Source of the DNA: Rhodoferax sp.
GTDB taxonomy: Bacteria > Pseudomonadota > Gammaproteobacteria > Burkholderiales > Burkholderiaceae_C
Assembly: GCF_012927445.1 (NCBI RefSeq)
Contig: NZ_JABBPD010000004.1
Coordinates: 841,039-905,038 of the forward strand
Direction: 5' to 3'
DNA length: 64,000 bases
Made by a program: the position numbers and the translations under genes. The notes under the pieces are model-generated. The model searched no databases and was not told where the DNA came from. It saw nothing but the letters and a program-made list of their open reading frames with translations. Positions 15,915 through 32,683 of the stretch are shown in pieces (positions within the stretch are counted from its first letter, which is position 1; each line of letters starts with the position of its first letter).

Positions 15915-16991
15915 TCAAAGAAACGATTGAATAGTTCTGCGAAAACCATCCTGTACGGTAACAATGGGCGACCACCCCAAAGATTTAATCTTTTCGATTG
16001 AAGGACAAGAGCGAGTTATAGGGCTTTTTAGATATGCACTGCTTCTGACTGGTACATCAAACTGCGTGCCAATCCCACGCTCGGGGAAGAGCCCTGCAAC
16101 TACCGTTGCCAAGTCTCTAATTGATATTTCGGCTTCTGGATTACCCACGTTATAAGCCTCTGCTTTGCCACCGGACAGGAGTACAGTCAAGAAGCCGATG
16201 GTGGCATCAGCGATGTAGCAGAACGGACGCAGGGCCAATCCGTCGCTTTTGAGAATAATGTTCCTTTTCGCAACGACATCAGCCACAAAGTCAGCAAATA
16301 CGCGACCGTCGTCCAACGCCATACCTGGTCCGTAAGTATGGAATGGGCGCACGACAGTGGTGTGCAACCCGTATTGCTGCCTCCAAGCAGCACACATGGT
16401 CTCGCCAATCCGTTTGCTCTCTGCGTAGCACGAGCGCACATTCATTGGGTCGATGTAACCGTAATCCTGTTCTCCAACCAACTGATTCGAGTCAATGGGT
16501 ACGCCGTAAACCTCACCGCTACTGAAGAACAGAAACTTCTCAGCTTGGCTTTTTACCGCATGCTCCAGCAGGTACATAGTGCCGGCCGAATTTGCAAGCA
16601 AGGTACCGACCGGGTCGACCCCATAGTATTTTGGGCTGGCTTGGCTTGCGCTATGAATGATGAAGTCAGCGCGCGGGAAATCACCCGGCAGCGGTTGTGA
16701 TACGTCGTGCTGCACAACGAATAAATCTGGGGCGCCTAAGTATGCTGAAAGTCGAGCTTCGACGCTCCGAGTGCTTCTGGCGACACAGATTACTTTGATA
16801 TTCAGTTTATTCAACCCTCCAACTGCCAGCAAAGACTTAACCAAATAGGCTGCTAAAAACCCGCCGCCGCCTGTAACTAATACAGTTTTGTCTCGCAGGT
16901 CTTCCCAAGGAAGCGTAGCTGAAGCGATGCGCTTTAAATCTTCCCGAATTACTGGGTTGGATTCTGATATTAATTGTTGTGATTCAATCAT
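15915..16991 (-). CDS. NAD-dependent epimerase/dehydratase, branched-sugar module candidate
   Basis: An extended SDR of 358 residues. TVLVTGGGGFLAAYLVKSLL is the nucleotide loop, SSGEVYGVP precedes the catalytic YAESK, and RPFHTYGPGM follows, as in dTDP-glucose dehydratase and UDP-glucuronate decarboxylase relatives. It lies 70 bases after another SDR and close to the ThDP/aldolase module. It may be the reductase or epimerase that finishes the branched sugar, but the step is not readable. I chose the ATG at 16991; an upstream TTG at 17024 would add eleven residues. Confidence 0.75.
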   Translation of the reverse strand: MIESQQLISESNPVIREDLKRIASATLPWEDLRDKTVLVTGGGGFLAAYLVKSLLAVGGLNKLNIKVICVARSTRSVEARLSAYLGAPDLFVVQHDVSQPLPGDFPRADFIIHSASQASPKYYGVDPVGTLLANSAGTMYLLEHAVKSQAEKFLFFSSGEVYGVPIDSNQLVGEQDYGYIDPMNVRSCYAESKRIGETMCAAWRQQYGLHTTVVRPFHTYGPGMALDDGRVFADFVADVVAKRNIILKSDGLALRPFCYIADATIGFLTVLLSGGKAEAYNVGNPEAEISIRDLATVVAGLFPERGIGTQFDVPVRSSAYLKSPITRSCPSIEKIKSLGWSPIVTVQDGFRRTIQSFL

Positions 16992-17061
16992 TGGATAAAA
17001 ATAGCAGCTTCTGATCTGTAGCAATCTGGCTGGTGGCGCCTAGGATGGCTATGCGCATGGC

Positions 17062-18114
17062 TTAACGCTCTGCTGAGAACCAGCGCCATGTCTTGTTAAC
17101 GGTCTGCTCCAACGAACACGTCTGAGTCACACCCAGGGCTTTCTGGGTGGTGGTGGTGTTCGGGTACAAATCGTCTTGCTGCCCCTGCTTCGAAGGCACG
17201 GTATTGAGCACCACGCGCGGCTTGGGTGAAATATGTTCTCCAATGAGTTTGACCAGCTCCAGATGGGTCACGGCAGTTGAACTGCCCACGTTGTAGGTTG
17301 CGCCATCGGCGCCATTGACCAGTGCAGCCAGCGTCCACCAGGCGGCGTCGCTGCCATACATATAGCTGCGGCGTGCAGTGCCGTCGCCATGAATGCGAAT
17401 ATCGCTGCCAGTAAGCACGTCACGCAGAAAGCTGTTCAGCGCCCAAGGGCGGTCTAACTCTTGGTAAGGTCCGGCGAAGGTGAACGGGCGGATGGTACTG
17501 ATGGGCATGCGGAACTGACTACGATAAATCGCCGCCAGGTTTTCTGCCGCACGTTTGGCTTCCACGTAAACCGTGTGTAACTGTCCGCATGGAATAGGAA
17601 AATAGTCGGTTTCAGTCAGCGCGCCCGGGCGGTTCGGTGAGCCACTAACCAGGCAAGAACTGACGTTCAAAAACCGCGACAGGTTATCAAGTTGGGTTGC
17701 GGCGTCAAGGGCGTTGTTCAATCCCAGTAGGGTGGTTTGCTGCACGCGCAGCGGGTCAGATGAATGCACCCGGTTGTTAGGAATGCCGGCTGCATGCACC
17801 ACAAAGTTGGTGTTGCGGGCAAATTCAAACGGTGAGCGCACATCTTGCGCCTTCAAATGGATATCGCTCCGCGCGGATAGGTGCGGATACTTCAGTGCCC
17901 AATCATTGACACTACGCGCATACAGATCGAGCGTGATGCCAAGGCGGTGCTCATCGTTGAGCGCTGCTACTGTCTCTGCGATCCAGGTACCCAAAAAACC
18001 AGTACCACCAGTCACTGCAATGTGTTGCAGGCCGAGCTTGGAGCGAATCTGAGGTTGCGAAGCACAGGCAAGCAAACAATCTTGACGGACTTCCAAAAAA
18101 CGATCTATTGGCAT
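17062..18114 (-). CDS. NAD-dependent epimerase/dehydratase coupled to the aldolase
   Basis: An extended SDR of 350 residues: HIAVTGGTGFLGTWIAETVA, NVSSCLVSG, catalytic YVEAK, then RPFTFAGPYQELDRPWALNS. It starts three bases after the aldolase stop, so it belongs to the tight four-gene unit ThDP enzyme / acetaldehyde dehydrogenase / aldolase / SDR. That arrangement makes it the best candidate for the ketoreductase acting on the branch keto group after the ThDP step (the role of YerF in yersiniose synthesis). This role is inferred from context only. Confidence 0.75.
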   Translation of the reverse strand: MPIDRFLEVRQDCLLACASQPQIRSKLGLQHIAVTGGTGFLGTWIAETVAALNDEHRLGITLDLYARSVNDWALKYPHLSARSDIHLKAQDVRSPFEFARNTNFVVHAAGIPNNRVHSSDPLRVQQTTLLGLNNALDAATQLDNLSRFLNVSSCLVSGSPNRPGALTETDYFPIPCGQLHTVYVEAKRAAENLAAIYRSQFRMPISTIRPFTFAGPYQELDRPWALNSFLRDVLTGSDIRIHGDGTARRSYMYGSDAAWWTLAALVNGADGATYNVGSSTAVTHLELVKLIGEHISPKPRVVLNTVPSKQGQQDDLYPNTTTTQKALGVTQTCSLEQTVNKTWRWFSAER

Positions 18115-18117
18115 GGA

Positions 18118-19140
18118 TTAAGTTCTCAATGAGGTGTTTTGGGCTGCCAATTCTCTGGCAACTTCAAAGATCAGACTTTCTTGCCCAGCCACGGCATTAC
18201 GCTTACCAAGACCGAAGAAGATGTCGCGTCCATCAACCTTGTATTCTTTAGCGGCTTGCGCAACGGGTTTGGCAAAGCCAGAGAAAACGCCAGACAAACC
18301 ACTCACAATGGACATGGGTGAAATACTGGCAGCTACTGGGTTGAATTCTTTCTCGGCGACATCGGCAGCATCCAGAATCTTGTACAGGTCAATACCCGTC
18401 TCAAACCCTAGTCGATCAAACACAGCCACCAATACTTCAAGCTGGGTGTTACCGGCCCCAGCGCCAAAGCCGCGAATGGTTCCATCAATAATGGTGGCAC
18501 CGGCATTGACGGCAGCTACAGAATTTATAACGGCCATTCCCAGATTATTGTGGCCATGAAAGCCTACGGGAATTGACAAACCATCTACCAGCGTTGAAAT
18601 GCGTTCGGTGACATTTTCAGGGAAATAAGCCCCTGCTGAGTCCATGATGATGACGGCTTCAGCACCATAGGACTCCATCTTTTTGGCTTCTTCCAGCAAA
18701 ATGGCGGGCGTTGCCATGTGGCTCATCATCAGCACGCCAAATGCCTCCTTGCCAACGTTGCGGATGTAGCCGATATGGCGGTCGGTGATGTCGGCCTCGG
18801 TGCAGTGTGAAGCAATGCGAAATACATCTACGCCAGCATCCACTGCTTTGGCCAAATCGGTCTTGATGGTTGCAAAGCCTGGTATCACATGGATGCCGAG
18901 GCGTGACTTAACCAGGTTGGTGCGCGATAGCATCAAGATGTCGTCGTCGCTCAGCAGGCACTCACCCACCAGCATGGACGATGCACCCAAACCATTGCCA
19001 TGCCCAACTTCAACGATAGGCACACCGGCAGCTTCTGCCGCCTTGCAATAAGCAACGAAGCTCTCGCGACTAAGTTGATGGCGTACCGCATGATTGCCGT
19101 CGCGCAGAGTGGGGTCACTGATAAGGATTTTTTTGGTCAT
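18118..19140 (-). CDS. 4-hydroxy-2-oxovalerate aldolase (DmpG/BphI-like)
   Basis: A 340-residue class II pyruvate aldolase. The active-site segment SDPTLRDGNHAVRHQ gives R13, D14 and H17, matching the catalytic Arg-Asp-His of BphI. The metal ligands are the H195-G-H197 pair. In aromatic meta-cleavage pathways it splits 4-hydroxy-2-oxovalerate to pyruvate and acetaldehyde and channels the aldehyde to its dehydrogenase; the reaction is reversible. Its ATG overlaps the dehydrogenase stop by four bases. No ring-cleavage, hydratase or hydrolase genes are present, so a biosynthetic role in this O-antigen operon is more likely. Confidence 0.88.
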   Translation of the reverse strand: MTKKILISDPTLRDGNHAVRHQLSRESFVAYCKAAEAAGVPIVEVGHGNGLGASSMLVGECLLSDDDILMLSRTNLVKSRLGIHVIPGFATIKTDLAKAVDAGVDVFRIASHCTEADITDRHIGYIRNVGKEAFGVLMMSHMATPAILLEEAKKMESYGAEAVIIMDSAGAYFPENVTERISTLVDGLSIPVGFHGHNNLGMAVINSVAAVNAGATIIDGTIRGFGAGAGNTQLEVLVAVFDRLGFETGIDLYKILDAADVAEKEFNPVAASISPMSIVSGLSGVFSGFAKPVAQAAKEYKVDGRDIFFGLGKRNAVAGQESLIFEVARELAAQNTSLRT

Positions 19141-20036
19141 GTCGATGACTCCCGAAAGGATGCAGATTTCGCGATGAGTTCAGCCATGGCAATCGCTGCA
19201 CAGTTAATGATGTCCAAGTTACCTGCATATTGCGGGAGGTAATCACCGGCGCCAACAACTTTAACTGTAACAACGATTTTGTTGTCTTGTATGGTCGGTG
19301 GCAAGATCAGTTTGTAGCCCGGTACATATTGCTTTATTTTTTCAACCATCGCATTTACCGCTGCTTGAATAGCAGGCAGGTCTGGATTGGCGATCTTGGC
19401 GTAGATCGTGGTTTGCATATCGATAGGCGGCATGGCCGGATTCAAGATCAGGATCGCTTTGGTGTGCTTTGCACCTGTTAGCGCCATGAGTGCGTCTTGG
19501 GTGGTTTCGATATATTCATCAAGATTTTGTCGGGTGGCGGGGCCAGCGCTTCTGGACGCGATGCTGGAGGCCACCTCGATGTACTCAATGTGGCTATGCA
19601 CTTGCGAGATGGCATAGGCGATGGGGATAGAGGCCTGCCCACCACAGGTCACCATATTGACGTTTCTTGCCCCGGTGGCTACACATTCTTCAGCATTCAG
19701 GGCTGGCACACAAAGTTCACCCAACTTGGCCGGGGTCATGTCGATGACGGTCTTGCCAAGTTTGTCCAAAATGGGCCAGTGTTCCATGTGGGCGTTCGCC
19801 GAGGTGCAGTCAAAGACGACATCGCAAATTGCAGGGTTGTTGACGATGGCTTCAATGCCACGGTCGGAAATCGGCACGCCCAATGCATTGGCGCGCTTCA
19901 TGCCCGTTGAATTGAAATTGCGACCCGCAAACAACGTGCAGGTCATACCCTGGGTGCGCATGACTTTAATCATCAAGTCAGTGCCGATGTTGCCAGTGCC
20001 GATGATGGCAATTTTGAGTTTGTGGGGGGATGTCAT
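19137..20036 (-). CDS. Acetaldehyde dehydrogenase, acylating (DmpF/BphJ-like)
   Basis: A 299-residue NAD-dependent enzyme linking acetaldehyde and acetyl-CoA. LKIAIIGTGNIGTDLMIKVM is the Rossmann loop, and NMVTCGGQASIPIAY carries the catalytic cysteine at C131. It forms a channelling complex with the aldolase encoded immediately downstream (four-base overlap). In a biosynthetic setting it would reduce acetyl-CoA to acetaldehyde and pass it to the aldolase. It starts 13 bases after the ThDP enzyme, in the same operon. Confidence 0.88.
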   Translation of the reverse strand: MTSPHKLKIAIIGTGNIGTDLMIKVMRTQGMTCTLFAGRNFNSTGMKRANALGVPISDRGIEAIVNNPAICDVVFDCTSANAHMEHWPILDKLGKTVIDMTPAKLGELCVPALNAEECVATGARNVNMVTCGGQASIPIAYAISQVHSHIEYIEVASSIASRSAGPATRQNLDEYIETTQDALMALTGAKHTKAILILNPAMPPIDMQTTIYAKIANPDLPAIQAAVNAMVEKIKQYVPGYKLILPPTIQDNKIVVTVKVVGAGDYLPQYAGNLDIINCAAIAMAELIAKSASFRESST

Positions 20037-20049
20037 TTGGGCCTTTAGC

Positions 20050-21885
20050 TTAAAGCGACTTGGATTTTTCGTGTACGCCGATCAGCATGGCACGCTCTAG
20101 CACGTCACGGGGTACTAGCGGTGACAAATCTTCGAGTGGCGGCGAGACCAGCGTGCCGTCTTCCTTGGATACCAGTGAAAGCTTAGGGGTGAAGAGTTGC
20201 TCCGGATGCATGAACACTTCACAGATAACCGGGCCAGTGGCGGCTTGCACCTTGGCGAGCGTTTCATCGCACTCATCCCAGTTGTGTATCTGGTAAGCGG
20301 GCATATCAAATGCAGCAGCAATCTTGGCAAAGTCAGGACAAGATACACCAGAGGCTTTGTCGGTGCCAACGTAGCCGGTTTTGAATAAAGCATTTTGCGT
20401 ATGCTTGATCATCAGGTAGCCGTCATTGTTAAAGATGAATAGTTTGATGGGCAGCTTGTGGTGAGCAATCGTTTGCATCTCTTGCAAATTAAGCATCATG
20501 CCGCCATCGCAATTGAGGCACATCACCTCTCCATGATTAAGTGCGAACGACGCACCTATGGCGGCAGGTAGGCCATAGCCCATTTCGCCCAGACCCGTTG
20601 AGGTCATTAACCGCTGACCGTCCGCAATGTGCAGGGCTTGATGGGCGCACAACAAAGCCGTGCCCATATCGGTGACAACGATCTGGTCTTTCTTGAAGAA
20701 GGTGTTTAGACGTTCCATGAAACGGTACGAGTTAATGAAGCCACCCTTGTCGTCGTGCTCTGGCCCGACCCAGGGAAACTGATCTTGGTACGCATTGCAT
20801 CTTGCAAGCCAGTCAGTCTTGCGAGTAATGACCAATTGCTGCAGCCGCTCTGTCAGCGCGCTCATGAATACAGCGGCATCACACTCAATCATTTCCTGGG
20901 TACGTGTCTGATGTTTGGATGCTTCTTGTGGATCGATGTCAACCACGTCAATCCGCGCGCCGCGCGCCAGTTCTGATAAGTCGTAGCCAATTTGCGGAAT
21001 CGCCAAGCGGGTGCCAATGGTCAGCAGGTAATCACAATTTTGCAAAATGAAGTTGGCGGCGCGTTGACCATACACGCCTGCGCGACCAAACACGAGGGGA
21101 TGCTTTGAGTCGATCATGTCAATTCCGGCCCATGACACCAGCGCTGGGACGCCTAGCAAGTCAAGCAGGGGCTCAATCTTCTTTTCTGCACCGGCAAGGC
21201 GTATGCCATTGCCGAGCCAGAGTAACGGACGCTGCGCCGTAAGCAAGGCGCTCACAACGCTGTCAACCTGCACTGCCATTTGTGGAGTCAAATGATTTAC
21301 CGAGGTTGGTGCCAAAAACTGAGCGGAGGTTGCTGGATCAATTCGGTTTGACTGGATGTCCATAGGGATTTCGATCCAGCACGGGCCGGGACGCTGATTG
21401 AGCGCAACATGTGCTGCTTTCTGAATCTCGTAGACCGCCTGCTCTGGCGAAGTTACGCGATGAGCATATTTGGTGACCTTGCGAACCATATCGACTGAGT
21501 CGTAGCCCTGCACGCCCCACATGCGGTGCGTATTCTCAACCTTGGTGAATTTGGAGTTTTCGTTACCGGCAATAACGATGCACGGGATCGAATCAGCCCA
21601 TGCAGACACCACGCCTGTGACCCCGTTGGTCGAGCCTGCGCCGGTGGTTAGCAGAGCTGCCGACAACTTGCCGCAGGTGCGGTAATAGGTTTGCATCGCC
21701 ATACAAGCTGCTTGCTCGTGGTGGACGCAGATGATCTCCGTGAAGCCGCGGCGAGAAATGGCCTCGTACAAATGCACGTTGCCTGCGCCAATGATGCCAA
21801 AAACATGTTCAATTCCCAAGTCTTCAAGAGCTTGAGCAATCAACTCGCTTACCTTTACTTTTTCCATAACCTGCATCGTGTTCAT
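20050..21885 (-). CDS. ThDP-dependent acetolactate-synthase-like enzyme (possible YerE-type ligase)
   Basis: A 611-residue enzyme with all three domains of the ALS/POX family. E57 in HHEQAA is the glutamate that activates thiamine diphosphate. The Mg/ThDP motif is NCDGGMMLNLQ (about 458-468) ending in NND at 486-488, with C replacing the first G of GDG. The family decarboxylates a 2-oxoacid and transfers the acyl carbanion. YerE of this family adds a two-carbon unit to CDP-3,6-dideoxy-4-keto-glucose to make yersiniose; here the donor may be 4-hydroxy-2-oxovalerate from the coupled aldolase. There is no small ilvN-type subunit gene, arguing against valine biosynthesis. A start at M7 is possible. 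Confidence 0.85.
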   Translation of the reverse strand: MNTMQVMEKVKVSELIAQALEDLGIEHVFGIIGAGNVHLYEAISRRGFTEIICVHHEQAACMAMQTYYRTCGKLSAALLTTGAGSTNGVTGVVSAWADSIPCIVIAGNENSKFTKVENTHRMWGVQGYDSVDMVRKVTKYAHRVTSPEQAVYEIQKAAHVALNQRPGPCWIEIPMDIQSNRIDPATSAQFLAPTSVNHLTPQMAVQVDSVVSALLTAQRPLLWLGNGIRLAGAEKKIEPLLDLLGVPALVSWAGIDMIDSKHPLVFGRAGVYGQRAANFILQNCDYLLTIGTRLAIPQIGYDLSELARGARIDVVDIDPQEASKHQTRTQEMIECDAAVFMSALTERLQQLVITRKTDWLARCNAYQDQFPWVGPEHDDKGGFINSYRFMERLNTFFKKDQIVVTDMGTALLCAHQALHIADGQRLMTSTGLGEMGYGLPAAIGASFALNHGEVMCLNCDGGMMLNLQEMQTIAHHKLPIKLFIFNNDGYLMIKHTQNALFKTGYVGTDKASGVSCPDFAKIAAAFDMPAYQIHNWDECDETLAKVQAATGPVICEVFMHPEQLFTPKLSLVSKEDGTLVSPPLEDLSPLVPRDVLERAMLIGVHEKSKSL

Positions 21886-22017
21886 TTAATAAATAATCCC
21901 AAATAAATATTCGTTTTAATGTTGTTCACAACAGAATTATTTCTTTTAAAAAGTTAAAGCCCGATCCGCTTGCATCTTGGCGGCTTTGAGGGGTCTGGGC
22001 TTGCATTCGGTTATTGC

Positions 22018-22075
22018 TCTGTTTTCAATAGCTTCTTACGCTTGCTACACGGGGGCTAGAGGCTGATTAGCTTTT
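22018..22075. repeat. Dispersed GGGGGCTAG-family repeat, copy R4
   Basis: TTTCAATAGCTTCTTACGCT, then CACGGGGGCTAGAGGCTGAT. On the minus strand the repeat supplies the last codons (KANQPLAPV) and the stop of the HEPN gene. It separates the MNT-HEPN module from the ThDP enzyme gene. Confidence 0.8.
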
Positions 22076-22557
22076 AAAATACCCACCGCAACGGCTTCAG
22101 CTTCGATCGCGGTAACTGCATCAAAAAGCATTTTTGCCGCTTCACGGGCGGTTAGCAGGGCTTGCAGAAAAAGCTCGGCGTCCGACATGTACTCATGCAC
22201 CAACAGGTTGCGCAGCTTTCTGGCGCCAATAAAAATCTCGGCATTTTCAATCCATTGCATTTTTTCAGCGAAGGCGAGCACGTCCAACATGGATTTGGGT
22301 GACTCGCCCAACAAGGCAGCAAAGCGGGGAATCAACTTTTCGCCAAGGTGATCTTGCAATCGACCAAAGCGGCTGACAAAAGCATCGACTTTTTCGGCCA
22401 AATCGTCGCGGGAGTTGAGTTGCTTCACCCAGTCTGCGTCCATCGGCTGTGCAAATAGCGTGCGGTGGGTATAACGAAGATGCGTGGTCTCTTTACGGGC
22501 TAACTCAAGCGCCAGCAATGCGTGCTCGGCATGCTCCGGCAGGTAGCGCAGGCTCAT
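22045..22557 (-). CDS. HEPN-domain (HepT-like) putative RNase toxin
   Basis: A 170-residue, mostly helical protein. FIGARKLRNLLVHEYM contains the RX4H motif (R-NLLV-H) that forms the ribonuclease site of HEPN toxins. It overlaps by four bases the upstream gene for a minimal nucleotidyltransferase, the usual partner, which inactivates HEPN toxins by adenylylation. Length is within the range of HepT-like proteins, slightly extended because its C-terminus reads into the dispersed repeat. It lies inside the sugar operon between the ThDP enzyme and the KilA-N gene. Confidence 0.75.
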   Translation of the reverse strand: MSLRYLPEHAEHALLALELARKETTHLRYTHRTLFAQPMDADWVKQLNSRDDLAEKVDAFVSRFGRLQDHLGEKLIPRFAALLGESPKSMLDVLAFAEKMQWIENAEIFIGARKLRNLLVHEYMSDAELFLQALLTAREAAKMLFDAVTAIEAEAVAVGILKANQPLAPV

Positions 22558-22853
22558 AATAAAACTCCGGTTCGTTTGGCAATTTCAAAAACGGGGGCCG
22601 ACGGGGTGTTAGCGTCTTTGAGTATGACGTCGATCTTGCGGTCACCCAGTGCGAGCGTCAAGGCGCCGTGCAGTTGGCAAAGCACTTGGGCACGGTTGGC
22701 AAACCGGGCATCGGTCTCAAAAAACAAATCTATATCGCCGCCCCTGCGGTCGTCCAGCGCCATGGATCCAAACACGCTAACTTGCGCGCCCACCCCCAGC
22801 ACCCGCTGGGCGGTGTGGCGAATGGCTTGTACTTGGTCTGGGGTTAGGCGCAT
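22554..22853 (-). CDS. Minimal nucleotidyltransferase antitoxin (MntA-like)
   Basis: A 99-residue protein with the polymerase-beta-type signature GSMALDDRRGGDIDLFF, that is GS...D-x-D, followed by a third acidic strand (RKIDVIL). This is the MNT domain that pairs with HEPN toxins and transfers nucleotides to them. It is directly upstream of, and translationally coupled to, the HEPN gene. The length is typical and the active-site residues are all present. Confidence 0.8.
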   Translation of the reverse strand: MRLTPDQVQAIRHTAQRVLGVGAQVSVFGSMALDDRRGGDIDLFFETDARFANRAQVLCQLHGALTLALGDRKIDVILKDANTPSAPVFEIAKRTGVLL

Positions 22854-22887
22854 GGCGATAGGTTCACTTTTTATGCGGGAATTCTGC

Positions 22888-22945
22888 TATATTTTTAGTA
22901 GCTTCTTACGCATACTGGACGGGGGCTAGAGGGTGATTTCATAAA
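22888..22945. repeat. Dispersed GGGGGCTAG-family repeat, copy R5
   Basis: GTAGCTTCTTACGCATACTG then GACGGGGGCTAGAGGGTGAT. It lies in the gap between the KilA-N gene and the MNT-HEPN pair, upstream of mntA. Confidence 0.85.
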
Positions 22946-22954
22946 CGCTACGCA

Positions 22955-23773
22955 CTACTTTAATTTCTTAACTGCGGGGCTAGCTAGCAACGATCGCATC
23001 TGATAAATAGCGGTGGCATTTAATGTCTTCAGCCGCCCTACCTGCGCCACACCTTGCCGGATTAACTCGGCGTTGATGCTTTCAAGGTTAGATAGCACGA
23101 CCAGTTGCTCGACAGTGGCGCAGTCGCGGATGTTGCCCTTGCTGTTTGGATTTTGTTCACGCCACTGCTTGGCTGTCATGCCAAACAAGGCTGCATTTAG
23201 CACGTCAGCTTCTGAAGCATAGATCAAACCTGTTTGCAGGGGTGTGATACTCGCGGGGATTAAAGTTTGTGCAATGGCATCGGTATGGATGCGGTAATTG
23301 ATTTTGCTTAACGAACGCGTTAGGTTCCATTCAAGCGTTTTGGACTGTATCTCGTCATCTTTTAAACGCTGAAACTCTTTGATCAGGTAGAGCTTGAACT
23401 TGGGGCTGATCCAACTGGCAAACTCAAATGCAATGTCCTTGTGAGCGTAGGTGCCACCGTAGCGCCCTGCTTTGGCCATCACGCCTGTCGCATGGGTTCG
23501 GGTAATCCATTGCTTGACCGACATCGTGAAGCGGTTAAGTCCCGCGTCCTTTTTAATCTCCTCGAATTCGAGGGAATTAAAACCCGGGTTGTAAATCTCT
23601 TCCCATACAGATAAAAACTCAAGCGTATTTTTGTTGCGCAACCAGTTGTCGATGACCACAGAGCCACTTTCGCTTTGGCGCACCATGTCGGTTAGCGAGA
23701 TGTAATCGGTCTCTGACTGCTCAATGATGGTGACAGGCACGCTTTGCACGAGCAGGATTTTATTTTTTGACAT
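22955..23773 (-). CDS. KilA-N domain protein
   Basis: A 272-residue protein. The N-terminal part (YISLTDMVRQSESGSVVIDN, WLRNKNTLEFLSVWEEIYNP, then AGRYGGTYAHKDIAFEFASW and ISPKFKLYLIKEFQRLKDDE) matches the KilA-N DNA-binding domain known from phage anti-repressors and related chromosomal proteins. The C-terminal half resembles a region seen in stand-alone KilA-N proteins; its role is unknown to me. It lies alone between two copies of the dispersed repeat, in the same direction as the sugar genes but unrelated to them. Confidence 0.8.
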   Translation of the reverse strand: MSKNKILLVQSVPVTIIEQSETDYISLTDMVRQSESGSVVIDNWLRNKNTLEFLSVWEEIYNPGFNSLEFEEIKKDAGLNRFTMSVKQWITRTHATGVMAKAGRYGGTYAHKDIAFEFASWISPKFKLYLIKEFQRLKDDEIQSKTLEWNLTRSLSKINYRIHTDAIAQTLIPASITPLQTGLIYASEADVLNAALFGMTAKQWREQNPNSKGNIRDCATVEQLVVLSNLESINAELIRQGVAQVGRLKTLNATAIYQMRSLLASPAVKKLK

Positions 23774-23779
23774 CGCTTA

Positions 23780-23840
23780 TTTGCTCTGTTTCTAATAGCT
23801 GCTTACGCTTTTTTTATATGAGCTAGAGGGCGTTTTAACT
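23780..23840. repeat. Dispersed GGGGGCTAG-family repeat, degenerate copy R6
   Basis: TTTCTAATAGCTGCTTACGC followed by ATGAGCTAGAGGGCGTTTTA; the G-run is lost. It fills the short gap between rfbH and the KilA-N gene. Confidence 0.65.
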
Positions 23841-23841
23841 A

Positions 23842-25164
23842 TTAAAAGTTAACACCAAGGTAGGACTCGATCTTGGCTGCCGCAAACTCCAGCATCTCCC
23901 GGGTCAGCGCCGGTTGCACCCCAATCCAGAAGGTGTTGTTCATCACGTTGTCGGTATTGGTCAGGTCGCCGCTGATGCGGTAGTTGGCCCCGGCCATGTA
24001 GGGTTGGCGCGTCAGGTTGCCGGCAAACAGCAGGCGCGTGCCGACTTTGTTCTGGTCCAGGTAGGTCAGCAGGTCCAGCCGCGTCACCGGGCAGTTTTCT
24101 TTCAGGGTGATCGGGAAGCCGAACCACGAGGGATCGGAGTGCTCGGTGGGCTCGGGCAGGCTGACGAATTCTTCGCAGTCTTTCAGGCGCTCTTTCAGGA
24201 AGGCAAAGTTGTCTTTGCGGGCCTGGATGAATTGCGGGGCTTTCTCCAATTGGGCCAAACCGCAGGCAGCTTGCATGTCGGTGATTTTGAGGTTGTAGCC
24301 CAGGTGGCTGTAGGTGTATTTGTGGTCGTAGCCGTAAGGCAAGTCACCCAATTGCTGGCAAAAGCGTTTGCCACAGGTGTTGTCTTTGCCGGGCTGGCAA
24401 TAACAATCGCGGCCCCAGTCGCGAAAGCTCTCGGCAATGGTTTTAAGCTCATCGTGCTTGGTAAACACCGCGCCGCCTTCACCCATGGTGATGTGGTGCG
24501 CCGGGTAAAAGCTGAGCGTGCCAATGTCGCCAAAGGTGCCGACCATCTGGCCACGGTAGGTGGTGCCCAGCGCGTCGCAACAGTCTTCTACCAGCCACAA
24601 GTTGTGCTTTTTGCACAGGGCGGTGACCACGTCCAGGTTAAAGGTGTTGCCCAGGCTGTGCGCCAGCATGATGGCTTTGGTTTTGGGGCTGATGGCGGCT
24701 TCGATCTTGCTGGCATCAATGTTGTGGGTGAGGCGGTCCACATCCACAAACACCGGCACCGCGCCAAATTGCAGGATGGGGTTGACGGTGGTGGGGAAGC
24801 CCGCCGCCACGCCAATGACTTCATCGCCTTTTTTGATGGCACGCTCGCCCAGCTTGGGGGATGTGAGGGTGCTGAACGCGACCAGGTTGGCGGACGAGCC
24901 GGAGTTGACGGTGATCAGGTGCTTGATGCCGATGAAGGCGGCAAGCTTTTTCTCAAATTCGGCGTTGAAGCGGCCTGTGGTTAGCCAGCCGTCCAGGCTG
25001 GCTTCAACCATGTTTTTGAGTTCTTCTGCGCCTATGACTTTGCCGGAGGGGGGGACGACCGATAGACCCGGGAGGAAGGGTTGCGGTGCCAGGGCGATAG
25101 CGGCGTACTCATCCACCAGTTTGGCAATCTGCTCGCGGAGGGCTTGGGTTTTGGCGTTTTGCAT
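23842..25164 (-). CDS. rfbH: CDP-4-keto-6-deoxy-D-glucose 3-dehydrase (E1, RfbH/AscC)
   Basis: A 440-residue PMP-dependent iron-sulfur enzyme that, with an E3 reductase, removes the C3 hydroxyl of CDP-4-keto-6-deoxyglucose. In the aminotransferase fold, the usual PLP lysine is replaced by histidine ([14 protein letters not shown]223), the hallmark of E1. Cysteines C196, C254, C256 and C264 exactly fit the C-X57-C-X1-C-X7-C pattern of its [2Fe-2S] cluster. The product is CDP-3,6-dideoxy-4-keto-glucose. The matching RfbG and RfbF lie upstream, separated by two unrelated genes. No E3 (AscD) gene is seen in the window. Confidence 0.93.
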
Positions 25165-25212
25165 GTTTTGAGTCAGATGATAAGTTTTGAAAATATGAAA
25201 CTGGGGTGCTGA

Positions 25213-25719
25213 TTAGTTCACGCACCATTCAAGCGCACCCAAGTTTGCTTTGCTGACGACGAGTGGATGTGCATCAACAGGCTTGAGTAGCTGGCGGATT
25301 TTTTGCTTTACATCAGCGGGACTGATGGCGATGGGGCGTAGTTTTGAGTGTTTGGCGGGCTGCTCAAGATGCAGAACCACCCGCAGACTGCGCGCGAGGG
25401 TGACTGCACGGGCAATTTGTTTTTCGCCTGCGTCGTTGGCGCAGTTTTTAGCGGGGATTAACGCCGCCAGTGTGTCAAACACCTTGTGTGCCACTTCATC
25501 GCCCAGTTCGGAGGGCTTGGTGCGCTGCTGTTGACGGTAGTCTTTTACCTCGATGAGCCATGCTGTTTTGTTGGGGGCCACGGCCAGAAGGTCTAATGCT
25601 TTGATGCCGTTCCACATCCGCGACACTTGGTTCCGGTAAAACGACCAAACGTCATATTGACTGACTTGCCAGTTGTCAGAGAAGTCAAAGCTCAAGCCAT
25701 CCACGTTGTAGCGCTGCAT
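25213..25719 (-). CDS. PD-(D/E)xK nuclease-like protein
   Basis: A 168-residue protein not assigned to a named family. IKALDLLAVAPNKTAWLIEV followed by KDYR has the strand-turn-strand layout of a PD-(D/E)xK nuclease core: D43, then E57-V-K59. It starts two bases after the stop of the AAA ATPase gene, so the two form a unit. ATPase-plus-nuclease pairs are common in anti-phage defence. It sits between rfbG and rfbH with no link to sugar synthesis. The fold call rests on one short motif. Confidence 0.6.
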   Translation of the reverse strand: MQRYNVDGLSFDFSDNWQVSQYDVWSFYRNQVSRMWNGIKALDLLAVAPNKTAWLIEVKDYRQQQRTKPSELGDEVAHKVFDTLAALIPAKNCANDAGEKQIARAVTLARSLRVVLHLEQPAKHSKLRPIAISPADVKQKIRQLLKPVDAHPLVVSKANLGALEWCVN

Positions 25720-25721
25720 GC

Positions 25722-26771
25722 TTAGATGTCCTCGGCCAAAAAACGGTCGGATTGCGCTAGCTCTTCATCGAGTGCGGCAATGTCGCCCAGATCATCGGGG
25801 CTGTCGCCCTGCTGGATTTCAATGCCGTCGTCTTTGCGATGTAGCCCGAAGAACCTCGCCTTGATATTTTTATTGGCTTTGTTGGCGAGTAATATTTCGA
25901 TCTCACGCAGTAGAAAAAGGCTGTGCGTGGCAATGAAGACCTGGATGCCTGCGCCAGACAGGTCAAGGATGCTTTTGGCAACCGATTTAATGAGCCTTGG
26001 GTTGAGGTTGGCTTCGGGTTCGTCCCAGAATAAATACCCCTTGTCGAGCAACGCGCCGGTGCTGATTAACCGCGACAGCATGCCCAGCTTGCGCAGGCCT
26101 TCCGCCACCAGCGGCATTTCCACACGACCGTCAGCACTGCGCAAATAGAAGCGGCCGTTTTTATCAAGCTCTATGGCACCGCCCATAGCGGCTTCTAGTG
26201 GGGCCAACAGTTCTCGCACACGCTTTTCTTTGGGGCCTTTTTGCATGGGCGCGCCAAGCAGCAGGCAAGTGTCGCGCCAGATTTCTTCAAATTCGAGATA
26301 GTGTCCTTCGTACACAGAAACAAAGTTGGGGAAGATGGTGAGCAATTCCCGGGTTGGCAAATAGGTTGCGGGTACATCCATCCAGGCTTTAGGCAGCTTG
26401 TCGATGCTGACTTCACTTTTGCTGTTGGTGGCAAAGCTAAATGAGGTGTCCCAGTCAGCGGACTCGAACATCAGACTGATGTCGCAGCGCTCGCGCCCTT
26501 GTTTTCGCCGTGCCAGGCGGCCCAGCGATTCGGGCCTGAAGACGTTAATCAATTTGTCAGCGTAACGTGTCTGTAGCGCTGATTTGGTTGGAAGTGGTGC
26601 ATTGGGCTTGCGGCCTTCTTCTGCACTGACAGCCAAAACTGAATAAACCATCTTGAGCAAGTGCGTTTTGCCCGCACCGTTTTCTCCAACGATCACATTC
26701 AGGTTGTCTCCAAACTCAAGGCTGGCTTGAGGAAAAACTGTCAGATTGCTGATCGTCATGCGCTTAAGCAT
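25722..26771 (-). CDS. AAA ATPase (OLD/ABC-type, AAA15/21-like)
   Basis: A 349-residue SMC/ABC-type ATPase. Walker A is GENGAGKTH at residues 29-37, Walker B is [15 protein letters not shown] around residue 250, and the switch histidine is in [14 protein letters not shown]. This resembles the ATPase part of OLD-family proteins but lacks a C-terminal TOPRIM domain; the nuclease-like partner is the separate downstream gene. The ATG at 26771 overlaps the rfbG stop (TGATG), so it is translated with the sugar operon. A role in phage defence is inferred from the architecture. Confidence 0.75.
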
Positions 26772-27829
26772 CAGAGCACCTTTGGTTGGTATTGGTTGAT
26801 CTGGCCAAGAGTAACCGCCTGCATGTTCGCGCCAGCCAACCACTGTTGGTGCCAGTCAACAGAGGCTTGCAGTGCCGCCTGTAACGTCCAGCGCGGTTGC
26901 CAGCCCAGGCGAGCTTTGGCTTTGGAGATGTCTAGCTTGAGGTAGTTGGCTTCATGCGGGTGAACACCGCCGTCTTGTTGCCAGCTTGCACCGTTGCCCC
27001 AACTGCTCACCATGTGCTCAACAATCCATTGCACGGGTTGAGCATCGTCGTCTGTGGGGCCAAAGTTCCAGCCCTCGGCAAATGTTTGGCCGTCGGTGTA
27101 GAGCCGTTCTGCCAACGCCAAATAACCGCTGAGCGGCTCCAGCACATGCTGCCAGGGGCGGGTGGCGTGGGGGTTGCGGATGATGACGGGTTGGTTTTGC
27201 TCAAAGGCACGCAAGATGTCGGGGATCAAACGATCTGCCGCCCAGTCGCCACCGCCGATGACGTTGCCAGCGCGGGCAGATGCCATGGCAATGCTTTTTT
27301 CTTGAAAAAAGGAGCTACGGTAGGCGCTGGTGACCAGCTCAGCACAACCTTTGCTGTTGCTGTAGGGGTCGTGGCCGCCCATGGGTTCGTTTTCACGGTA
27401 GCCCCAGGCCCATTCTTTGTTTTCGTAGCATTTGTCAGTGGTGACATTGACCACGGCTTTGACGCCGGGGCTGTTGCGCACGGCTTCGAGCAAATGCACG
27501 GTGCCCATGACGTTGGTGGAGTAAGTCTCGACCGGATTTTGGTACGAGTAACGTACCAAAGGTTGCGCCGCCATGTGGATGACGATCTCAGGCTTGTGCT
27601 CGGCAAAGACGGCCTGCAATTTGACGAGGTCGCGGATGTCGCCAATGATGCTGGTCATGCCTTGGCTGACCTTGGCAACGTCAAACAAGCTCGGATTGGT
27701 GGGCGGCGCCAGGGCATAACCAACGACTTGCGCGCCCATGGATTGCAACCAGAGCGACAGCCAGCTGCCTTTGAAACCAGTGTGGCCGGTCAGCAGGACA
27801 CGCTTGCCATGCCAGAAAGAGGGGTTCAT
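26771..27829 (-). CDS. rfbG: CDP-glucose 4,6-dehydratase (RfbG)
   Basis: A 352-residue extended SDR, characteristic of Rfb[21 protein letters not shown] at the N-terminus, [40 protein letters not shown], and the catalytic [10 protein letters not shown]. It converts CDP-glucose to CDP-4-keto-6-deoxyglucose. The start [11 protein letters not shown] at 27829 overlaps the stop of rfbF by four bases. It feeds RfbH, two genes downstream, on the path to 3,6-dideoxyhexoses. Confidence 0.93.
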
Positions 27830-28599
27830 GACCAAACCTTCCACGGGGCTTTGCCGGATTGCCACAACTCTTCAAGGTGGATTTTGTCGCGCAAGGTATC
27901 CATGGGTTGCCAAAAGCCGTGGTGCTGGAAGGCGGCCAAATTACCTTCTTGGGCCAAACGCTCCAAGGGTTCACGCTCCCAAGTCGTCTGGTCATCCGTG
28001 ATGTAGTCAATAACCGCTGGTGACAGTACAAAGAAGCCGCCGTTGATCATGGCGCCATCACCTTTTGGTTTTTCCATGAAGCTGTTGACCTTGTCGCCTT
28101 TCAGGTCGAGTGCACCGAAACGACCGGGCGGAATCGTGCCTGTGAGGGTGGCTTTGACGTTTTTCGCTTTGTGGAAAGCGATCAGTGCGGTAATGTTGAC
28201 GTCAGCCACGCCATCGCCATACGTAAAGCAAAAAGCTTCTTCGTCTTTGACGTAATCAGCCACGCGTCTCAAGCGGCCACCGGTCATGGTGTCTTCACCG
28301 GTGTCTACCAGGGTGACGCGCCAGGGTTCCGCGCTACGGTGGTGGACTTCCATGCTGTTTTTACTCATGTCGAAGGTGACATCGGACATGTGCAGGAAGT
28401 AGTTGGCAAAGTACTCTTTGATGACATAGCCCTTATAGCCGCAGCAAATGACGAAGTCGTTGATGCCGTGGTGGGAATAAGTCTTCAAAATGTGCCACAG
28501 GATGGGCTTGCCGCCGATTTCGATCATCGGTTTAGGACGCGTCGAGGTTTCTTCGGAAATGCGGGTGCCTAGGCCACCGGCGAGAATGACTGCTTTCAT
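27826..28599 (-). CDS. rfbF: Glucose-1-phosphate cytidylyltransferase (RfbF)
   Basis: A 257-residue nucleotidyltransferase. [20 protein letters not shown] begins with the GGLGTR nucleotide-binding loop, followed by [19 protein letters not shown] and [10 protein letters not shown]. It makes CDP-glucose from CTP and glucose 1-phosphate, the entry to all CDP-dideoxyhexoses. I chose the ATG at 28599, where homology begins; an upstream in-frame start at 28644 adds fifteen unlike residues encoded by the dispersed repeat region. Confidence 0.92.
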
Positions 28600-28610
28600 T
28601 TTTTGTTTAT

Positions 28611-28672
28611 TCCAATGCAATTGTTTTGATAGCTGCTTGTGCATACTGGACGGGGGCTAGAGGCTGATTTCA
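28611..28672. repeat. Dispersed GGGGGCTAG-family repeat, copy R7
   Basis: TTTTGATAGCTGCTTGTGCA, TACTGGACGGGGGCTAGAGG, then CTGATTTCATTCAAC. It shares the longer right end ATTTCATTCAAC with the copy at 30112-30175; in both, TCA is the stop codon of the neighbouring leftward gene. The two copies bracket the AlbA-like gene. Confidence 0.85.
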
Positions 28673-30109
28673 TTCAACAACCTCCCAGTAGCCGCCTTTG
28701 GCGGGGCCGATGCGGCGCAGTTTGCCTTCAGCACGCAGTTTGCGAACAGCCCGCTCAATGGCGCTGTCTGACTTGTCAAGATGCTGAGCTAGCTCAGGGA
28801 TGGATGTGCTCGGCGCCGCTGCAAGCTGGCGAAGGATCAGATTTGGCGTTTTCCCCGGCGTTTTCCCCGGCGTTTTCCCCGGCGTTTGCTCCGAAGTGCC
28901 GTCGTTTTTTGAACGAGCCAAGGATGCGGGCAGAGCAAAAGTCATGCTCACGAAGTCGTCATTGACCCTCAAGGAGGGGGCCGCAAGACCCGCCTCTTGC
29001 ATCAAGCCAACAATTTTGAGAGTGCCCCGACCCCAGGTTTCAATCAAACCACGACGGTAAAACACCTTGGCAATCCAGGGGTTCCATGGCTTGGATTCGT
29101 GAGGCAGATAGAGTTTTTCAGGGGTCAGCCCAAAATGCAGCTCACCGGGGGAGATGACCTCAAGCCGATCGTCGTACAAAGCCACTGACACCGAGCCTGC
29201 GGCACTGGCGTAGTCGCGGTGGATAAAGGCATTGGCCAGTGCTTCGCGTACGGCTTCTACGGGCAGCGCGGGTGTGTCGATGCGGGCCATTTGACCGGGC
29301 ACAATTTTGCCGGCCACGGGCATCCAGTCAATCAGAAAGCGCTCGGCCCGGCGCATCAGGGCAAAGGCGTTGCCCGCGTATTGCCGGTTGTCCAGGAACT
29401 CGTCGCGCGTGGTGCCTTTGAAGCGGGCGACGCGCAGATTAAATTGAGGAAACTCAGGAATGGCGTGATCATCCCGACAAAACAGCGCGATGGCAGCGCG
29501 GCTGATTTGGTCGCCCTGTACCAGTAAACCCAAACCTCGCAGCAAGCCCATGGGGTCACGGGTGCCGGGGTCTTCCATGCGGCCGCGTCGTATGGCCTCT
29601 TCAATGGTGACCACAAGTTCACGCGGGTCCAATGTGTCGATGCCGCAGCCCACGGCTGCCTGCATTTCCCAGCGGTTAGTGGCGTGCATCGACTCGATGA
29701 GTAAGCGCTGATAAGTGGCACGCGGCATGACGCGGGTGGTGTTGAGTACGCGCTCATAAGGTACGCCGCGAAAGGAAATGGGAGTCTGTTCGGCACGCCC
29801 GACTTGAACCAGCAGCACTTCCAATCCAGCCTCACTCCCCTCTGCGACCGGGATGCGCTGAAGGTGCGGGAGCAGCGGCGGCTCAAAGCCTTGAAACTCC
29901 TGGGCCAACTCTTCCAACGTGCGGTCGGTCACTTTTTGCCCTACCACTTTGCCAGCGGGGGTGACGCCGAACACCACTTGCCCGCCTTGCCCATTGGCCA
30001 GCGCGCACAGACTGCGGCAGGCGCGGTCTTTCTCTGCCGTGGACTTTTTGAGTTCCAGCGTCAGGGATTCGCCTGCGGCGATCAGGGTTTGAAGGGCAAC
30101 GAGCGTCAT
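28670..30109 (-). CDS. AlbA_2/Schlafen-type ATP-binding putative regulator
   Basis: A 479-residue protein. The N-terminal AlbA_2 domain is recognised by ESLTLELKKSTAEKDRACRS and LANGQGGQVVFGVTP. The middle has an HATPase-like segment (EAVREALANAFIHRDYASA, SPGELHFGLTPEKLYLPHES, YRRGLIETWGRGTLKI). The C-terminus is a winged helix (LAQHLDKSDSAIERAVRKLR) preceded by a TPGK repeat. Such proteins are annotated as putative DNA-binding transcriptional regulators or divergent helicases, and some belong to defence islands. It lies between gmd and rfbF, bracketed by two copies of the dispersed repeat, and looks like an inserted module. Confidence 0.8.
   Translation of the reverse strand: MTLVALQTLIAAGESLTLELKKSTAEKDRACRSLCALANGQGGQVVFGVTPAGKVVGQKVTDRTLEELAQEFQGFEPPLLPHLQRIPVAEGSEAGLEVLLVQVGRAEQTPISFRGVPYERVLNTTRVMPRATYQRLLIESMHATNRWEMQAAVGCGIDTLDPRELVVTIEEAIRRGRMEDPGTRDPMGLLRGLGLLVQGDQISRAAIALFCRDDHAIPEFPQFNLRVARFKGTTRDEFLDNRQYAGNAFALMRRAERFLIDWMPVAGKIVPGQMARIDTPALPVEAVREALANAFIHRDYASAAGSVSVALYDDRLEVISPGELHFGLTPEKLYLPHESKPWNPWIAKVFYRRGLIETWGRGTLKIVGLMQEAGLAAPSLRVNDDFVSMTFALPASLARSKNDGTSEQTPGKTPGKTPGKTPNLILRQLAAAPSTSIPELAQHLDKSDSAIERAVRKLRAEGKLRRIGPAKGGYWEVVE
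28845..28887. repeat. 12-bp tandem repeat inside the AlbA-like gene
   Basis: About three and a half copies of GGCGTTTTCCCC, encoding Thr-Pro-Gly-Lys on the minus strand between the ATP-binding part and the C-terminal winged helix. The unit is a multiple of three, so copy-number change would alter linker length without shifting the frame. Confidence 0.9.
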
Positions 30110-31281: not shown

Positions 31282-32261
31282 GATGTGGGCAATGCCTGGT
31301 TGCTATTCAAAAAATCTTGGTAGGCGACCGGCAAGCCTTCTTGCAGGCTGACCTTGGCTTGCCAACCCAGCGCATTCAAGCGGCTGCTGTCCATCAGCTT
31401 GCGCGGGCTGCCGTCTGGTTTAGTCGGGTCAAAGTCAATTTTGCCTTGGTAGCCCACCGCCTGGCTGACGGCTTGGGCGAGCTGGGCGATGGTGATGTCT
31501 GAGCCATAGCCCACATTAATGTGGCTTTGCATCGGCTGGGTGTGGGCGCCGTAGGTGGCTGGGGCCAGATTCATCACATGCACGCTGGCGGCGGCCATGT
31601 CGTCAACGTACAAAAACTCTCGGCATGGTGTACCGGTGCCCCAGATGGTGACGATGGGGGAGTTGTTGACTTTAGCTTCATGAAAGCGACGTATCAGCGC
31701 GGGAATAACGTGGCTATTTTCCGGGTGGTAATTGTCACCGGGTCCATACAGATTAGTGGGCATGACGCTGCGGTAGTCCACGCCGTGGCTGGCGCCGTAC
31801 TGACGGTTGTAACTCTCACACAGTTTGATACCAGCGATTTTGGCAATGGCGTAAGGCTCGTTGGTGGGCTCTAGCGTGCCGGTGAGCAAGGCAGCCTCCG
31901 TCATGGGCTGGGGGGCCAGCTTGGGATAGATGCAGCTGGAGCCTAAAAACAGAAGCTTCTGCACCCCGACGCGCCAGGCTTGATGGATGACGTTGGCCTC
32001 CATCATCAGGTTTTGGTAAATGAACTCGGCCGGATAGGTGTTGTTGGCATGAATACCGCCCACTTTGGCTGCGGCCAGATACACCTGGTCTGGTTTTTCG
32101 GCATCAAAAAAAGCGCTGACGGCGGCTTGGTTGGTGAGGTCCAACTCCGCATGGGTACGGGTGACGATGTGGGTCTGGCCTTGTTGTTGCAAGGTGCGAA
32201 TGATGGCTGCGCCGACCATGCCGCGGTGGCCGGCTACATATATTTTGGACTGTGGGGTCAT
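31278..32261 (-). CDS. fcl: GDP-L-fucose synthase
   Basis: A 327-residue bifunctional 3,5-epimerase/4-reductase. [20 protein letters not shown] is the nucleotide loop. [20 protein letters not shown] and the catalytic YAIAKIAG follow, then [20 protein letters not shown]. With Gmd it completes GDP-L-fucose synthesis from GDP-mannose. The start overlaps the MarR-type regulator stop by four bases and the stop overlaps gmd by four bases. Confidence 0.95.
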
Positions 32262-32683
32262 GTGGGATTTTGCGTTTGCGTTTGCGTTTGCGTTTGCGTT
32301 TGCGTTTCCGTGCCGTTTTCAGCGACTTCCTGCTGTAACGCTTCAATCTCGGCATTGAGCAGTGCGTATTCTTCTAACTTGCGAGCCAGAAATTGCCCGG
32401 TGAGCGCGGTCTTGGCAGCAATGCCGGCGGGCGTGAGCAGGTAGACGTAGGCGAGCTTGCGTTTGCTGCTTTGAAAGTTCTGCATCTTCAGCAAGCCCTT
32501 GTCGAGCAGCGCCCGCAGGCAAAAGTTGGTTTTACCGAGACTCACCCCCAAAGCTGCGGCCAAATCGCGTTGGTTGATCTGCGGGTTGGCCTCCAGCAGG
32601 CGCAGTACCTTCAGGTGCGTATCCTGGTGGAGCGCGGGCGATAACACATGTTCAATCATTGAACAAATGGTATCACGGACCAC
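32258..32683 (-). CDS. MarR-family EPS-associated transcriptional regulator
   Basis: A 141-residue winged-helix protein of the type found at the head of exopolysaccharide loci. [40 protein letters not shown] is the helix-turn-helix, and [20 protein letters not shown] the wing. A C-terminal coiled-coil-like helix follows ([20 protein letters not shown]), then a Thr-Gln repeat tail encoded by a hexanucleotide repeat. The frame opens with a GTG at 32683, sharing one base with the wzz stop; an ATG at 32659 is an alternative. It probably controls the polysaccharide operon in which it lies. Confidence 0.85.
32272..32307. repeat. Hexanucleotide repeat (GCGTTT)6 in the MarR-type gene
   Basis: Six perfect copies of GCGTTT, encoding (Thr-Gln)n at the C-terminus of the regulator, just 11 bases before the fcl start codon. 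Expansion keeps the frame but changes tail length. Confidence 0.95.

Follow-up and report, generated by a model that had tools for sequence, protein, structure and literature searches.

Which sugar is made by a locus that holds, side by side, genes for a dideoxy sugar and a pair of genes known from catabolism? We addressed this question in a 64,000-nucleotide stretch of a Rhodoferax sp. genome (contig NZ_JABBPD010000004.1, positions 841,039 to 905,038; the whole stretch is called the window). Positions 15915-28599 carry rfbF, rfbG, rfbH, the gene of a YerE-like thiamine diphosphate (ThDP) enzyme, genes of the DmpF and DmpG type, and two genes for short-chain dehydrogenases/reductases (SDR1 and SDR2), all on the minus strand. 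We consider it likely that this locus makes a cytidine diphosphate (CDP)-activated, ten-carbon, 4-C-branched 3,6-dideoxy sugar whose carbon skeleton is that of erwiniose, and that 4-hydroxy-2-oxovalerate is the donor of the branch. A catabolic enzyme pair best known from pollutant breakdown would then have been recast for cell-surface biosynthesis across phyla.

Gene content of the locus

Gene families were called with Pfam and with the equivalog cut-offs of NCBIfam, and the nearest structures by matches to the PDB. Five proteins (RfbF, RfbG, RfbH, DmpF, and DmpG) passed NCBIfam equivalog cut-offs. In the order of the minus strand, the genes are as follows:

27826..28644 (likely start 28599), minus strand: rfbF, glucose-1-phosphate cytidylyltransferase (TIGR02623, 479 bits, cut-off 300)
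26771..27865, minus strand: rfbG, CDP-glucose 4,6-dehydratase (TIGR02622, 530 bits, cut-off 278)
23842..25164, minus strand: rfbH, CDP-4-keto-6-deoxyglucose 3-dehydratase (NF011936, 749 bits, cut-off 423)
20050..21885, minus strand: JanthE-type (YerE-like) ThDP carboligase (PDB 8rph, 1061 bits; CDG at residues 459-461; catalytic Glu57)
19137..20036, minus strand: DmpF-type acylating acetaldehyde dehydrogenase with conserved Cys131 (TIGR03215, 400 bits, cut-off 282)
18118..19140, minus strand: DmpG-type 4-hydroxy-2-oxovalerate aldolase (TIGR03217, 363 bits, cut-off 286) with communication domain (DmpG_comm, PF07836, 80 bits)
17062..18114, minus strand: SDR1, extended SDR (PF01370, 105 bits)
15915..17024, minus strand: SDR2, extended SDR (PF01370, 146 bits; nearest PDB entries are uridine diphosphate-glucuronate decarboxylases, 2b69 with 154 bits)

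The start of rfbF is likely at 28599, because the family model starts at residue 16 of the longer open reading frame (ORF) that ends at 28644. A preliminary description of this stretch had listed these genes with their order and span, and had reported spacings of 13, -4, and 3 bases in the run ThDP gene, DmpF, DmpG, SDR1. The family matches confirmed the genes, and the ORF coordinates gave exactly these gaps. It had also assigned rfbFGH to the synthesis of CDP-3,6-dideoxy-4-keto-glucose, which agrees with the three equivalogs above cut-off.

The ThDP enzyme

All three TPP domains of the ThDP enzyme were found with Pfam. The best 25 of its 54 NCBIfam matches were all below cut-off, and the top one was acetolactate synthase (339 vs. 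538). Among PDB entries, 8rph matched with 1061 bits and the runner-up with 259 bits. Entry 5ahk, with 259 bits, is distant from the window enzyme; we take it to be a YerE because a review mentions a structure of PpYerE. Entry 8rph, like 8RPI and 8RPJ, is JanthE of Janthinobacterium sp. HH01 (PMC12188165). With JanthE the window protein shares 75% identity, and the five published hot-spot residues of JanthE are all identical in it (numbering taken as chain minus one; the residue types agree). The motif CDG replaces the GDG ThDP motif in all 29 JanthE-type rows of the alignment and in none of the nine other ThDP rows, and the catalytic glutamate is kept in 38 of 38 rows. Judged by its sequence, the window ThDP enzyme is an orthologue of JanthE.

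The reported donors of JanthE are pyruvate, 2-oxo acids with longer chains, and 4-hydroxy-2-oxovalerate, the last with benzaldehyde as acceptor; its carboligation of ketones is likewise published for JanthE and not for the window enzyme (PMC12188165). The same report gives the physiological substrates of JanthE as not identified, and the neighbourhood of the window enzyme would supply both a donor and an acceptor. The locus thereby proposes natural substrates for a biocatalyst that has been crystallised.

The closest published chemistry is that of ErwE from Pectobacterium atrosepticum, which joins a hydroxy-2-oxo acid to CDP-4-keto-3,6-dideoxyglucose to give erwiniose, as found in vitro with a substrate analogue (PMC12247030). 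This publication overtakes the remark in the preliminary description that it knew of no described biosynthetic route to erwiniose. Both the acceptor and the class of donor are those that we propose here. According to the review, 4-hydroxy-2-oxo acids are the preferred donors of ErwE and pyruvate is no substrate for it, whereas JanthE does use pyruvate. YerE of yersiniose synthesis has the same acceptor and belongs to the same enzyme class, but it adds a two-carbon branch from pyruvate (PMC12247030). Beyond this review, our literature search gave no paper that links these enzymes to O-antigens or branched sugars; the original JanthE and ErwE papers were outside the search and may propose parts of the scheme.

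Recurrence in other genomes

Relatives were collected by scanning genome contigs with the window ThDP protein, which gave 25 loci, and the presence of each gene was scored by tblastn with fixed thresholds. The scan peptides came from the window protein, so that near relatives were favoured; matches still reached down to 58% identity. The preliminary description had suggested a search for the co-occurrence of the ThDP/DmpF/DmpG unit with rfbFGH, and the two were found together. DmpF and DmpG were present in 23 of the 25 loci, RfbH in 22, SDR1 in 20, RfbF and RfbG in 19, SDR3 in 14, and SDR2 in five. In the genomes of all three loci without RfbH, this gene was located elsewhere (in one of them only partly matched, at the end of a contig). 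The gene set of the window is no chance grouping, because it recurs in 23 of the 25 loci of its relatives. Among the hosts are Burkholderiales, Pseudomonas, Bacteroidota, and a Holophagaceae genome. Locus L016 encodes a ThDP enzyme 96% identical to JanthE, and rfbFGH, DmpF, DmpG, and SDR1 adjoin it.

Within the family to which the window belongs, 4 of 399 genomes had a JanthE-type ThDP enzyme (E value of 1e-140 or better) and 88 had a DmpG (1e-60 or better). DmpG proteins with at least 70% identity occurred only in the four JanthE-type genomes, and the next best had 44% identity. This co-occurrence gave a Fisher value of 9.6e-10, calculated with relatedness ignored and with the window's own genome counted. 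The rfbFGH genes adjoin in all four genomes; in one of them the pair is split over two contigs, both of which break inside DmpF. Two of the 89 genomes of the window's genus encoded a JanthE-type enzyme (85-100% identity), and three others had relatives with 34-37%. The DmpF/DmpG pair is tied to JanthE-type enzymes and to rfbFGH across phyla.

Matches to the ThDP enzyme were found in 1589 plasmid records, with the best place always below 60% identity, so that no near relative was among them. In 5426 Escherichia coli genomes there was a single match to the DmpG/DmpF DNA, 59 bases long and within mhpF. A sample of 390 genomes of one order showed no JanthE-type enzyme and three matches at 35-37%.

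Phylogeny and active site of DmpG and DmpF

The DmpG tree and alignment comprised 57 rows, 27 from sugar loci and 30 others, and those of DmpF comprised 56 rows, 26 from sugar loci. As comparison DmpG proteins we took the 26 best non-sugar matches with loci in the search of the 399 genomes, plus four others. Within short flanks, catabolic neighbours (hydratase, decarboxylase, or ring-cleavage genes) were present beside 21 of these 30 and absent beside nine, so the label "catabolic" for this group is partly an assumption.

All 27 sugar-locus DmpG rows lay on one side of a branch with support of 100/99, and the 26 sugar-locus DmpF rows formed one clade in a FastTree phylogeny (support 1.0). The preliminary description had held that an occurrence of the module mainly in aromatic catabolic loci, without rfbFGH, would speak against it; what we found is that the catabolic-type DmpG proteins of the family form a clade of their own. 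The window genome itself encodes a second DmpG of that type, 41% identical to the first and located beside hydrolase, hydratase, and decarboxylase genes.

A blind comparison of alignment columns between the two DmpG groups gave four separating columns, at window residues 35, 84, 121, and 286. By alignment, residues 84 and 286 correspond to Leu88 and Tyr291 of DmpG (1nvm). These in turn correspond to Leu87 and Tyr290 of BphI, with an offset of one, the sole nearby offset that places Leu at both 87 and 89. At the BphI Leu87 site, the sugar-locus rows have His in 27 of 27 (His84 in the window), and 29 of the 30 others have Leu. At the Tyr290 site, Phe is present in 27 of 27 (Phe286 in the window) and Tyr in 30 of 30. 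The window aldolase is thus a member of the DmpG family by model score, yet it departs from it at active-site Tyr291. The metal and catalytic residues (Arg17, Asp18, His21, His200, and His202, in DmpG numbering) are kept in all 57 rows, and the catalytic Cys of DmpF in all 56. The window pair therefore shares families, catalytic residues, and communication domain with the pairs of the meta-cleavage pathways (DmpF/DmpG, BphJ/BphI, and MhpF/MhpE). Unlike these, it belongs to a separate clade, has His and Phe at the stereocontrol sites, and stands in a biosynthetic neighbourhood.

Most stereoselective pyruvate aldolases, including BphI, are described in a review as 4S-selective. In BphI, the change Tyr290Phe abolished stereochemical control, and the double mutants Leu87Asn/Tyr290Phe and Leu87Trp/Tyr290Phe used (4R)- and not (4S)-4-hydroxy-2-oxopentanoate (PMC3962088). 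Because both stereocontrol sites are changed and these double mutants are (4R)-selective, the sugar-locus DmpG would, by analogy, probably give (4R)-4-hydroxy-2-oxovalerate, in contrast to the (4S) form of catabolism. Erwiniose is 3,6,8-trideoxy-4-C-(1-hydroxyethyl)-octose with D-gulo configuration and an R centre at C7, and a (4R) donor would give this centre.

A broader proposition, to which we assign an even chance, is that the DmpG clade beside JanthE-type enzymes, which spans Pseudomonadota, Bacteroidota, and an Acidobacteriota genome, represents in nature the (4R)-selective equivalent of the (4S)-selective catabolic enzymes. Its DmpF would be dedicated to the supply of (4R)-4-hydroxy-2-oxovalerate, from which the branches of ten-carbon surface sugars would be built, and this compound would also be the physiological donor of JanthE. 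The prediction is of a natural stereo-inverted pyruvate aldolase, which would be useful in chiral synthesis.

Proposed pathway

RfbH requires a reductase partner of the RfbI/AscD type. With such a reductase encoded elsewhere, RfbF, RfbG, and RfbH would form CDP-3,6-dideoxy-4-keto-glucose, the presumed acceptor in this organism. DmpF would convert acetyl-coenzyme A (acetyl-CoA) to acetaldehyde and hand it to DmpG, which would condense it with pyruvate to 4-hydroxy-2-oxovalerate, probably the (4R) form given the changed active site. The JanthE-type enzyme would decarboxylate this donor and join the resulting 3-hydroxybutanoyl unit to the keto sugar at C4. Finally, SDR1 (or SDR2) would reduce the resulting ketone, and the sugar would enter a surface polysaccharide; the glycosyltransferase genes nearby indicate such a polysaccharide in general terms only. 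SDR1 is the leading candidate for reduction of the branch ketone and SDR2 a second candidate tailoring enzyme, and neither reached an equivalog cut-off among the NCBIfam matches listed.

Donor use is published for the relatives ErwE and JanthE and is extended to the window enzyme by analogy. To their branching chemistry this locus appears to join a dedicated donor supply within one operon, which looks stereochemically inverted, and it thereby proposes a source of donor for erwiniose-type sugars.

Several observations weigh against this pathway. A tblastn search with the proteins of two relatives found no RfbI/AscD-type reductase in the window, and its best homologue in the window genome has 39% identity and lies about 0.33 Mb away on the same contig (L099, G000:C2:515032-516018). 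Of 29 loci compared (the window, the 25 loci, and L094 to L096), 8 have such a reductase next to rfbF. A complete pathway in one locus is therefore less easily claimed. In locus L006, rfbFGH are found together with a JanthE-type enzyme (86% identity) but DmpF/DmpG are absent from the stretch examined, and the best DmpG of its genome has only 42% identity and catabolic neighbours. The stretch of L027 breaks off within the ThDP gene and has no DmpF/DmpG, and the 1.0 Mb genome shows no DmpG. SDR1 is absent from 5 of the 25 loci, L027 included. The BphI mutants that were tested carried Asn or Trp at position 87 and not His, which makes the (4R) assignment an analogy. The likeness to ErwE was drawn from its published description. 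Lastly, the use of pyruvate and other 2-oxo acids by JanthE is a promiscuity that weakens the inference of the donor.

Alternative products and donors

The alternative that survives best keeps the same donor and acceptor and changes the product to another ten-carbon isomer or derivative (in the configuration of C4, C5, or C7, O-methylated, or cyclised), which would be erwiniose-like and not erwiniose. We rate it only a little short of an even chance. The genes do not reveal the configuration, and we found no direct counterpoint. The sets of SDRs vary among loci, and none of the 25 has both SDR2 and SDR3; this mutual exclusion suggests alternative tailoring steps, perhaps for different stereoisomers. 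Methyltransferases of the FkbM type are present in 5 of the 25 loci (L005, L012, L014, L022, and L028). Erwiniose is itself described as a ten-carbon sugar branched at C4, and the review also names ropiose and aurantose as C4-branched sugars (PMC12247030).

It is improbable, in our view, that pyruvate is the source of the unit transferred by the ThDP enzyme, a two-carbon one as in yersiniose synthesis, while DmpF and DmpG serve another purpose. The acceptance of pyruvate by JanthE (PMC12188165) and the L006 locus without the aldolase pair would fit this, but DmpF and DmpG are steady companions of the JanthE-type enzyme, and L011, L012, and L014 hold a YerE-like gene besides the JanthE-type one, as if the donors differed. 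Use of pyruvate alone, which the preliminary description had set against its proposal, does not apply to JanthE, although pyruvate is among its donors. The transfer of 4-hydroxy-2-oxovalerate put forward there is in line with an enzyme of the ErwE/JanthE family, which takes 4-hydroxy-2-oxo acids, and with the tie to DmpF/DmpG; the donor itself is beyond proof from sequence alone, because JanthE accepts pyruvate too.

Slightly less probable still is a branch of more than four carbons, from a sugar-locus DmpG that takes another aldehyde (propanal or a functionalised one). Aldolases of the DmpG type are described as tolerating longer aldehydes after a change of BphI Leu89, and ErwE is reported to take 4-hydroxy-2-oxohexanoate as well (PMC12247030). 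The Leu89 site is Ile in all 27 sugar-locus rows, but it is Ile also in 14 of the 30 others; a residue so common elsewhere fits acetaldehyde as the aldehyde, and DmpF, as a member of the operon, suggests acetyl-CoA. That DmpF and DmpG are a stray catabolic pair which degrades 4-hydroxy-2-oxovalerate is very improbable: aromatic breakdown is the known role of both families, but this pair has its separate clade and different active-site residues, and among its annotated neighbours (ORFs of at least 120 residues) there is no hydratase, decarboxylase, or ring-cleavage gene.

Related loci and neighbouring genes

In the three Pseudomonas loci with two ThDP genes, the second, YerE-like gene lies between rfbH and the JanthE-type gene (L011:8221-9924, L012:8221-9924, and L014:8220-9932). 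The YerE-like rows have 28% identity to JanthE and the GDG motif, and two branched sugars may be made from one keto sugar in one locus. More than 200 YerE-like enzymes are reportedly covered by a single study.

Other loci combine rfbFGH with more distant ThDP enzymes. Two of them (L059:9520-12857 and L060:8925-12257) have a relative of 34% identity beside a gene of the NeuB family that includes a cupin domain, in place of DmpF/DmpG, perhaps for a phosphoenolpyruvate-based supply of donors for longer branches. In L056:8735-11709 and L055:3895-10361, the ThDP relatives have 36-37% identity; one ThDP gene is beside a class I/II aminotransferase gene, the other has a xylose-isomerase-like gene and SDRs in its vicinity, and the donors probably differ. 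These different neighbours (NeuB-like, aminotransferase, and sugar isomerase-like) suggest a mix-and-match rule for branched sugars.

The run from rfbFGH to the ThDP gene of the window is broken by four further ORFs, all outside the pathway:

25722-26843, minus strand: AAA ATPase, between rfbG and rfbH
25213-25719, minus strand: ORF with no Pfam match, between rfbG and rfbH
22955-23773, minus strand: KilA-N ORF, between rfbH and the ThDP gene
22045-22557, minus strand: ORF with no Pfam match, between rfbH and the ThDP gene

In two of the related loci (L005:2458-4167 and L006:6248-7945), the rfbH ORF has a long N-terminal extension, the opening of which is PemK/MazF-like by eye only. At 28670-30109 of the window, a Schlafen/AlbA_2 ORF that also encodes a winged-helix domain lies between rfbF and a gene like those for guanosine diphosphate-mannose 4,6-dehydratase. 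Two adjoining ORFs at 32258-33573 encode long stretches of a repeated dipeptide, (TQ)n and (PT)n, which come from short tandem repeats.

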